Below, piece after piece: positions 33,794 to 34,882 of a stretch of 64,000 nt of DNA. The stretch is from assembly GCF_000166135.1 (NCBI RefSeq), contig NC_014666.1, positions 6,014,001 to 6,078,000 of the forward strand. The letters are read 5' to 3'. Each line of letters starts with the position of its first letter. Position 1 is the first letter of the stretch. Below the pieces are notes generated by a model that saw nothing but the letters and a program-made list of their open reading frames with translations, did no database searches and had not been told where the DNA came from. The position numbers were made by a program, and so were the translations under genes. The DNA comes from Pseudofrankia inefficax (GTDB lineage: Bacteria; Actinomycetota; Actinomycetes; Frankiales; Frankiaceae).

Positions 33794-33869
33794 TGGTAGC
33801 CCGGGTGGGATTCGAACCCACACTGTCGGTGGTTTGAGCACCGTCTCTCTGCCGTTGGAGTACCGGGCC
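33794..33869 (-). tRNA. tRNA with CAA (Leu-type) anticodon, class I shape
   Basis: A 76-nt cloverleaf on the minus strand. The acceptor GGCCCGG pairs with CCGGGCT (first pair G-U), followed by discriminator A and an encoded CCA. The D-stem is 3 bp (CTC/GAG). The anticodon stem CGGTG/CACCG encloses loop CTCAAAC, giving anticodon CAA, which reads UUG (Leu). The T-arm is GTGGG TTCGAAT CCCAC. The variable region has only 5 nt, whereas normal bacterial tRNA-Leu has a long variable arm. By shape it resembles tRNA-Gln, but Gln anticodons are CUG or UUG. A73 agrees with leucine charging. The amino-acid identity therefore needs care. Confidence 0.8.
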
Positions 33870-34282
33870 TGGCATCGATGTGGACCTGGGGAGTCTCCGG
33901 CGTGAACATCCCTCGCGGCTGCGGGGCGGATAAGGCGATGGAGGTGCTCCCCGTGACGACTCTAGCCGGGTAGGGTGCGATTCGACCTCTCGCCCCGCCC
34001 GTTTGGGGCCTGTGCGGTGTTCCGGGCCAGCCGTCGTCGGCGGCCCCCGGCGCGCCGGTAGCGGCCAGCCGCCTCGCAGCGGACGGAGCGTGGAGTCGAG
34101 ACGACCGCGCTGGCAGCCGGCGCTCGCGCGACCGACCTGGTCGCCGGGCGTCACCGCCAACCATGGCGGGGGGCTGCCGCCAGCCGACCGTTGAGCGCAG
34201 CAAGGATGCGTCCAATGGACGGCAGAATGGCTACCGACGCCGACCGACCACTATCGACGCCGACCCCAGGAGATCAGACTCG
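33870..34282. other. Region between tRNA and pdtaR
   Basis: No gene is supported. Some frames are open through it, including an upstream extension of pdtaR, but they lack family similarity. A well-placed AGGAG (34268-34272) marks the real pdtaR start. Confidence 0.5.
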
Positions 34283-34882
34283 ATGAGCCAGCCATCCTCG
34301 ACGCCGCGCCGGGTGCTGATCGCCGAGGACGAGGCGCTGATCCGTCTCGACCTGCGTGAGATGCTGCAGGAAGAGGGCTACGAGGTCGTCGGCGAGGCCG
34401 GCGACGGGGAGATGGCCGTGACGCTGGCGACGAAGCTGCGTCCGGACCTGGTCATCCTCGACGTGAAGATGCCGAAGATGGACGGCATCGAGGCCGGCGC
34501 GAAGATCGCCAAGGAGCGGATCGCCCCGGTCGTCATCCTCACCGCGTTCAGCCAGCGCGACCTGGTCGAGCGGGCCCGGGAGGCCGGCGCGATGGCCTAC
34601 GTCGTCAAGCCGTTCCAGAAGAAGGACCTGCTGCCGACGATCGAGATGGCGATGAGCCGGTTCACCGAGATCGTGAGCCTGGAGGCCGAGGTCGAGGACC
34701 TGCAGGGCCGGCTGGAGGCTCGCAAGATCATCGAGCGGGCCAAGGGCGTGCTGCAGACCGAGCACAAGATGACCGAGCCGGACGCCTTCCGCTGGATTCA
34801 GCGCACCTCCATGAACCAGCGCCGGACGATGCGGGCGGTCGCCGAGGCAGTCCTGTCCGGGGAGGCCCTGCCCGGGCAGTGA
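34283..34882 (+). CDS. pdtaR: PdtaR-type response regulator with ANTAR domain
   Basis: A 199-residue regulator: receiver domain (1-125) with RVLIAEDEALIRLDLREML, phospho-acceptor in VILDVKMPKMDG (Asp about 60), switch residues in VVILTAFSQ and VVKPFQKKDLL; then a coiled linker and a C-terminal ANTAR domain (about 138-192) with IIERAKGVLQ. ANTAR proteins bind paired hexaloop RNA hairpins and prevent transcription termination. This one matches mycobacterial Rv1626/PdtaR, partner of histidine kinase PdtaS, in length and neighbourhood (polA, rpsA, tesB nearby). The kinase is not in the window. ATG 34283 has AGGAG 10 nt upstream. Confidence 0.93.
   Translation: MSQPSSTPRRVLIAEDEALIRLDLREMLQEEGYEVVGEAGDGEMAVTLATKLRPDLVILDVKMPKMDGIEAGAKIAKERIAPVVILTAFSQRDLVERAREAGAMAYVVKPFQKKDLLPTIEMAMSRFTEIVSLEAEVEDLQGRLEARKIIERAKGVLQTEHKMTEPDAFRWIQRTSMNQRRTMRAVAEAVLSGEALPGQ

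Follow-up and report, generated by a model that had tools for sequence, protein, structure and literature searches.

A short-armed tRNA-Leu(CAA) alternates with the long-armed form beside pdtaR in actinobacteria

The one tRNA gene of the window (the whole 64-kb stretch of DNA that was analysed, out of a single 8.8-Mb contig) very probably encodes a working, UUG-reading tRNA-Leu of the short-armed class, which has kept the leucine identity set and is swapped as a unit at a locus beside pdtaR. Among relatives this one locus is occupied by either a class I or a class II tRNA-Leu(CAA), and the class found in the window would reflect which allele last occupied it. In function the molecule appears to be an ordinary leucine tRNA, in form a kind that has not been recognised.

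Anatomy and conservation of the tRNA gene

ARAGORN called a single tRNA in the window, tRNA-Leu(caa), on the minus strand at 33794..33869, and the Rfam tRNA model RF00005 matched it with 49.8 bits (gathering score 29, E 1.1e-7). Together with the sequence itself these calls bear out the anatomy given in an earlier sequence-only reading, namely a 76-nt cloverleaf with encoded CCA, the anticodon loop CTCAAAC, the anticodon CAA and a variable region of 5 nt. The acceptor stem has 7 bp. The anticodon (positions 34-36; 33834..33836, minus strand) reads UUG and has U33 and A37 on either side, the variable region ACAGU (positions 44-48; 33822..33826, minus strand) ends in U48, and the discriminator is A73 (33797..33797, minus strand). 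The D arm (33845..33860, minus strand) is of the leucine type, with a 3-bp stem and the bases C13 A14 A15 C16 G18 G19 C20 A20a G21 A22. With a normal cloverleaf and a variable region within the 4-5 nt of class I the tRNA belongs to that class, and at 5 nt it lacks the long variable arm of class II.

The neighbour of the tRNA is a divergent gene for a pdtaR-type response regulator with receiver and ANTAR domains (34283..34882, plus strand; PF00072, PF03861; PDB 1s8n, E 2e-81), and from position the promoter of the tRNA should lie in the intergenic stretch between the two (33870..34282). A periplasmic binding protein gene lies on the 3' side.

The tRNA sequence has a match in 32 of 41 relatives searched, at least two of these matches being short and partial (G027, G034), and all seven genomes of the same genus are 100% identical to it over the matched stretch. 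At the 30 loci read from this search ARAGORN called Leu(caa) every time. In a set of 52 different class I sequences 1027 of 1040 stem cells are paired, and double (compensatory) changes occur at 15 of the 20 stem pairs, which argues for a selected cloverleaf and not a chance fold; this covariation, with the conservation in relatives, rules out a pseudogene.

Leucine identity and the meaning of UUG

The genome that holds the window has 46 tRNA matches, among which the window tRNA is the only one with a CAA anticodon, and a search of these 46 for a class II tRNA-Leu(CAA) elsewhere, a check that had been proposed beforehand, found none. Among the other leucine tRNAs of this genome the UUA reader is also of class I and the CUN readers (UAG, CAG and GAG) are of class II. 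The UUA reader (G000:C1:828855-828930; L075:201-276) has a 6-nt variable region and carries C33 in place of the near-universal U33 (loop CCTAAAA); C33 was seen by eye in the UAA tRNA of the 15 rows of family f1 and of six f17 genomes as well.

In the part of PMC9976931 drawn on here, the elements of E. coli tRNA-Leu that matter are given as A73, A14, A15-U48, G18G19 and A20a, while the sequence and fold of the long arm are described as irrelevant to leucylation, armless variants remaining active. The window tRNA holds the complete set, A73, A14, A15-U48, G18G19 (as GG-Y-A20a) and A20a, along with the common A35. As the identity elements are present and the long arm is absent, the gene is a tRNA-Leu by its identity elements and not a class II tRNA. 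The same elements recur among the 118 CAA loci read (see below), where A73 and A14 are each found at 118/118, the window included, and A15 is found with U48 at 116; the other two loci, both class I and both in genus g24, have G15 with C48, a compensatory change. Only one reading frame of the genome, at 831.6 bits, scores above the LeuRS family cut-off, and the tRNA, which keeps A73, A14, the trans-Levitt pair A15-U48, G18G19 and A20a, would most likely be charged by this one ordinary LeuRS.

The sequence-only reading had seen a body like that of tRNA-Gln, a likeness that dissolved on comparison, identity being 41/73 to both of the genome's Gln tRNAs, 51/73 to its Leu(UAA) and 53/73 to a Met tRNA. 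Its suggestion of an anticodon-shifted tRNA is likewise set aside, given that the leucine identity set is kept, identity to tRNA-Gln is low and UUG aligns with leucine as CUG does. In the conserved genes of the window itself TTG occurs at 4 aligned positions only (7 cells: 5 Leu, 1 Cys and 1 Val), which is too rare, and the meaning of UUG therefore rests on relatives. In 51 class I genomes TTG codons aligned with a leucine of the window in 130 of 224 cells (58%), against 706 of 1191 (59%) for CTG, and in 20 class II genomes TTG did so in 37 of 59 cells (63%). By this alignment UUG is an ordinary leucine codon in class I relatives, and codon reassignment was rejected for them, since TTG aligns with leucine as often as CTG does.

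Distribution of the two classes

We searched 148 genomes of the window's class, each at least 95% complete and drawn evenly, using four separate patterns (class I or II, CAA or UAA) that replaced an earlier combined pattern because the latter also caught tRNA-Trp. Chance rows were removed by eye; these were G309, G273:C14, G348:C1:1021562, G334:C4, G329 and G270:C3 for class I CAA, G276, G347, G331 (two), G339, G323, G289 (two), G297, G363, G246, G348, G310, G326 and G226 for class II CAA, and G324, G271 and G226:C8 for class II UAA. The CAA tRNA was of class I in 85 genomes and of class II in 35, with 28 matched by neither pattern, and the UAA tRNA was of class I in 106 and of class II in 21, with 21 matched by neither; no genome had both forms of either tRNA. 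Eight of the genomes whose CAA tRNA fitted neither pattern belong to family f18, genus g24 (G051, G158, G177, G226, G236, G322, G330 and G338), and these probably have a variant D or T loop. We take g24 to be Streptomyces, from its bldA-like UAA tRNA and from the named Streptomyces genomes; for six Streptomyces genomes the part of PMC4932002 covered gives one CAA gene each.

Among named genomes both the CAA and the UAA tRNA are of class I in Mycobacterium asiaticum, Corynebacterium pelargi, an Amycolatopsis, Nocardioides pini, a Cellulosimicrobium and Planktophila versatilis, and a class I CAA tRNA stands with a class II UAA tRNA in Bifidobacterium stellenboschense, Salinispora fenicalii and Streptomyces lincolnensis. 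The class I pattern found at least 118 named loci, and 114 of the matches listed are from Actinomycetota; besides the two MAGs described below, two more of the matches listed are not actinobacterial, one labelled Acidobacteriota and one Armatimonadota. A phylum-wide count by the class I CAA pattern gave 17 matches among 216, including one chance-like row (G068). Besides a seed picked for its match, none of 198 genomes drawn from Pseudomonadota held a class I tRNA for UUR codons, two further rows there being chance-like. The unusual isoacceptor proposed from the sequence is thus real as a structure, a class I tRNA-Leu that is the sole CAA among the 46 matches, and fails as a peculiarity of this genome; the reading had itself named an ordinary known actinobacterial tRNA as the finding that would count against it, and the tRNA is common among actinobacteria.

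Some rarer cases were seen alongside. Class I Leu(UAA) occurs rarely outside Actinomycetota, as in a Gemmobacter MAG (G371:C156:9470-9513; L134) and a Rokubacteria MAG (L131), and the short Leu(UAA) of the former may be phage-borne or lie on a stray contig, since the same genome has a class II Leu(CAA). Besides a bldA-type class II Leu(UAA), Streptomyces sp. SAJ15 shows another UAA match, a short one whose D arm reads AGAC (G381:C4:137993-138037); it is perhaps a chance match or a mobile copy.

The pdtaR locus

A CAA pattern matched in 120 genomes, and from 117 of these we read 118 CAA loci, leaving out three genomes of the window's own family (G041, G043 and G044); distances to pdtaR, and to the endonuclease-like gene described below, were measured to the tblastn match and not to a proven start codon. 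The suggestion that Streptomyces be checked for the same tRNA next to pdtaR proved fruitful, as the CAA tRNA adjoins pdtaR at 112 of the 118 loci, 80 of 83 in class I and 32 of 35 in class II. At the remaining six pdtaR is absent from the fetched stretch, two of these lying at a contig end and four having some 1.5 kb on each side. The tRNA is divergent from pdtaR at 94 loci and co-directional at 18, G328 among the latter. Thirteen of the 18 belong to family f81, a group of very small genomes (e.g. L398, L403) in which all 13 loci are co-directional and the tRNA lies 1-46 bp from the pdtaR match. In a separately drawn set of named genomes, among the matches listed, pdtaR lies within 1 kb at 43 of 56 CAA loci and, as a negative control, at 0 of 62 UAA loci; the 13 CAA loci without it, among the same matches, include seven from Corynebacterium and some others near the end of their stretch.

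Both classes are held by six families and by five genera among these 118 loci. On a tree of 112 pdtaR proteins parsimony gives 15 class changes, as compared with 28 when labels are shuffled, and since the tree is a quick one with some long branches the figure of 15 is approximate; the starred branches force at least seven.

Replacement of the whole tRNA gene

The two classes differ throughout the molecule. The variable region is exactly 5 nt at 83/83 class I loci and 13, 15 or 17 nt at 35/35 class II loci; U8 A9 and C13 mark 83/83 class I tRNAs, while U8 G9 is found in 35/35 and G13 in 34/35 of class II. With the variable region left aside, tRNAs of opposite class from a single genus disagree at 21-30 of some 68 positions, while every tRNA of the five mixed genera has its closest counterpart in another genus among tRNAs of its own class, with 0-10 differences. 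Opposite-class forms in one genus are therefore wholly different molecules, which speaks for replacement and not for loss of the arm. Most likely recombination with a foreign copy would have replaced the gene, perhaps with its promoter, in one piece, no arm being gained or lost in place.

It is firm that the entire tRNA was exchanged, but how far the replaced block reaches is poorly resolved. Six same-genus pairs of opposite class were aligned in detail. In five of them the upstream block closest to the tRNA shows 81-91% identity and breaks off 44-175 bp ahead of it, and the sixth (G328/G336) showed no homology; all ten same-genus pairs of the same class compared in this way align through the tRNA. 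A test of the upstream break alone, with the tRNA left out, did not separate opposite-class from same-class pairs, homology stopping 56-174 bp short of the tRNA in ten opposite-class pairs (one more having none) and 0-368 bp short in 154 same-class pairs (three more having none). Over the last 60 bp before the tRNA the closest band gave a median identity of 0.50 for opposite-class pairs (4 pairs) against 0.70 for same-class pairs (29), and the 0.85-0.90 band gave 0.48 (11) against 0.55 (91), so that the limits of the block stay blurred because this test separates the classes in the closest band only. The stretch just before the tRNA may have been swapped together with it in relatives.

A LAGLIDADG-type gene beside the tRNA in relatives

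A gene for an endonuclease-like protein of about 250-280 residues adjoins tRNA-Leu(CAA) at 17 of the 118 loci (12 class I, 5 class II), in families f14, f17, f18, f19, f28 and f87. Sixteen of the 17 copies follow the tRNA in the same orientation, 35-191 bp beyond its 3' side, and one lies upstream on the opposite strand; at L411 only some 140 residues are in frame. It was also found at five of the 118 named loci among the matches listed (Actinomadura parmotrematis, Catellatospora tritici, Streptomyces sp. SAJ15, Nocardiopsis listeri and, with a broken frame, Streptomyces lincolnensis), all of them CAA loci (5/56), with none at the 62 UAA loci. The gene was not found at the other 101 of the 118 sampled loci, the window among them; five of the 118 have less than 1 kb of sequence on the 3' side. 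The best tblastn row in the window (E 6.7e-6) is the tRNA gene itself, hit by an over-extended N-terminus; such N-termini, reaching into the tRNA, occur for instance in L114, L404, L425 and L435.

The protein has an N-terminal helix-turn-helix followed by two LAGLIDADG motifs, LLGxYLGDG and RGLxHSDG, whose acids D77 and D178 are invariant in all 20 aligned sequences (L123, with a broken open frame, and L411 were left out of the alignment and tree, and L355, whose frame runs on, was trimmed at the common C-terminal end of the family). Pfam PF14528 matches at E<=0.01 in 17 of the 20, the scores shown lying near the gathering score and three of four below it, and a profile search of PDB sequences at E 1 returned mainly helix-turn-helix proteins and one weak I-AniI row. 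An AlphaFold2 model (pLDDT 91.9) finds its best PDB matches in I-DmoI (Z 16.0, rmsd 2.9 over 161 residues) and I-Tsp061I (Foldseek E 2.7e-8). The same fold is seen in WhiA, titled a transcription factor (Z 15.8), and the conserved acids matter for the nuclease reading because the fold alone, being common to WhiA, does not show a nuclease. By motifs and modelled fold we regard the protein as LAGLIDADG homing-endonuclease-like and as a putative nuclease.

Replacement of the tRNA as a unit could be driven by this gene acting as a free-standing homing endonuclease, a possibility to which we give a little less than an even chance. The putative endonuclease would cut copies of the locus that lack its gene, repair would copy promoter, tRNA and endonuclease across, and the class of the tRNA would change either because the tRNA is simply carried along or because tRNAs of the other class escape cutting. 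Besides its position at CAA and not at UAA loci and its invariant motif acids, footprints of this kind can be seen in g24. Between G207, which has the gene, and G362, which lacks it, both of the same class, the alignment runs to +92/+91 and resumes from +969/+142, leaving some 830 extra bp. Between G354 (class II, gene present) and G362 (class I, gene absent) it runs to -71/-79 and resumes from +987/+142, so that the DNA just ahead of the tRNA, the tRNA itself and the endonuclease gene form a single replaced block between shared flanks. Other pairs with and without the gene are less clean, as G345/G288 and G282/G341 have other DNA in its place and G325/G341 share nothing downstream. Among genera with at least two genomes the gene is present in 4 of 5 mixed-class genera and in 2 of 18 unmixed ones (Fisher one-sided p 0.008, a post hoc test that ignores kinship), while at family level the association with mixed class is not significant (p 0.21). 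The mixed families f4, f83 and f89 are among the loci where the gene was not found, and homing cannot explain them unless it was lost there. Nor does tRNA class cluster on the endonuclease tree (4 changes, shuffled mean 4.6), so that the endonuclease and the class of the tRNA are not permanently coupled. On this balance the linked endonuclease, acting by homing, is a plausible though unproven driver and the best available.

Viral contigs hold distant relatives of the endonuclease (24-36% identity) that also tend to lie near tRNA genes, with one within 200 bp at 10 of 12 loci, several of which are apparent near-copies. At viral locus L454 a 75-nt Leu(CAA) lies 9 bp past the end of the endonuclease match, in an array whose four other Leu tRNAs measure 83-89 nt. 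In plasmids and annotated phages no relative of the endonuclease of L359 was found at E 0.001. It is tempting to go further and see the chromosomal tRNA gene as cargo of a homing system, its class flipping as the element comes and goes and phages serving as the reservoir, a tentative picture that we think somewhat likelier to be wrong than right. The free-standing HTH-LAGLIDADG endonuclease would cut the pdtaR-tRNA locus of relatives without it and install its own promoter and tRNA; where the element was later lost, as may have happened in the window's own genome, only the swapped tRNA would remain, and the reservoir would be phages that carry related endonucleases and a Leu(CAA) of the same short-armed form.

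Alternative explanations

An ancient tandem pair beside pdtaR, one tRNA of each class, with one copy lost per lineage would also give class-specific clades at one locus, and would require recent ancestors with both forms in the mixed genera; as both forms occur together in 0 of 148 genomes and a second CAA tRNA at 0 of the 118 fetched loci, we disfavour it as improbable. We likewise disfavour, and think slightly less probable again, repeated loss and regain of the arm by mutation within one tRNA lineage, with which the shared locus and the same leucine D loop in both classes would agree, and with which the differences at 21-30 other positions, the class-specific marks and the same-class nearest relatives outside the genus do not. 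Reassigned or ambiguous UUG, or a non-translational role such as tRNA-dependent peptide synthesis, has the odd structure and the great rarity of TTG in the window's conserved genes in its favour and is very improbable for the sole CAA tRNA of a genome, with leucine identity kept, UUG aligning with leucine in class I relatives and a conservation too wide for a niche role. No support was found for the special role in reading the rare TTG codon that had been proposed, and ordinary decoding of UUG suffices.

Comparison with known systems

Bacterial class II tRNA-Leu(CAA) has in common with the class I form the anticodon, A73, A14, A15-U48, G18G19, A20a, the 3-bp D stem and the pdtaR locus, whereas the class I form has 5 nt and not 13-17 in the variable region, A9 and not G9, C13, and the consensus AGAG and not AGAC. 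Animal mitochondrial tRNA-Leu(UUR) is also a leucine tRNA without the long arm, and the part of PMC9976931 drawn on gives the identity of human mt-tRNA-Leu as A73 and A14; unlike it, the window tRNA has a full cloverleaf and is found in a free-living bacterium with class II Leu tRNAs in the same cell. A tRNA-Leu(TAG) with a short variable loop, again actinobacterial, sits in a mycobacterial tRNA cluster according to the part of PMC6582537 covered, but there the cluster copy has a normal counterpart elsewhere, whereas the window gene is the sole CAA found. For M. tuberculosis the part of PMC11541572 covered gives long variable loops to tRNA-Leu-2, 3 and 5, which suggests by implication that the other Leu tRNAs lack them.

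The same short-armed form is carried by phages, with at least 15 CAA and at least 66 UAA genes in 80 viral loci (L224-L303), though there it often stands in tRNA arrays, at least 64 of the 80 having further tRNAs; none of the 15 viral CAA genes among the matches listed exceeds 86% identity to the class I CAA set from chromosomes. The window tRNA itself matched ten annotated phage records, tRNA-Leu of Gordonia phages (76% identity) and of cyanophage, and one plasmid record.

The protein encoded beside the tRNA in relatives shares its fold, and the two motifs with their acids, with the monomeric LAGLIDADG endonucleases I-DmoI and I-Tsp061I; these are intron-encoded by their PDB titles, whereas the gene described here is free-standing, lies beside a tRNA gene and has an extra N-terminal helix-turn-helix. 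SegB of phage T4 is a free-standing GIY-YIG endonuclease that carries tRNA genes along, and is thus alike in moving tRNA genes and unlike in that the gene of the relatives is of LAGLIDADG type and lies on bacterial chromosomes.

The part of PMC9976931 drawn on gives the long arm as a universal trait of tRNA-Leu outside animal mitochondria, and the actinobacterial sequences contradict this, provided that the tRNAs are charged with leucine. Many members of one bacterial class, Mycobacterium, Corynebacterium and Streptomyces included, read UUG, UUA or both by short-armed tRNAs. In the open-licence literature, which leaves most subscription journals outside, no account of class I tRNA-Leu as a trait of actinobacteria turned up, and the parts covered of PMC6582537 and PMC4932002 do not describe it as one; databases may list such tRNAs. 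Short and long UUG readers that have often traded places at one locus amount to a natural experiment on recognition by LeuRS and SerRS, one that also concerns toxins which attack tRNAs by reading the variable arm and isotype software built to expect such an arm. If the linked endonuclease does drive the swaps, they would be a gene drive acting on an essential bacterial tRNA.

In G336 a gene for a phage-type tyrosine integrase (L349:4079-5362; PF00589, E 2.3e-25) lies 20 bp past the class I tRNA-Leu(CAA), and this tRNA may therefore also be an attachment site.
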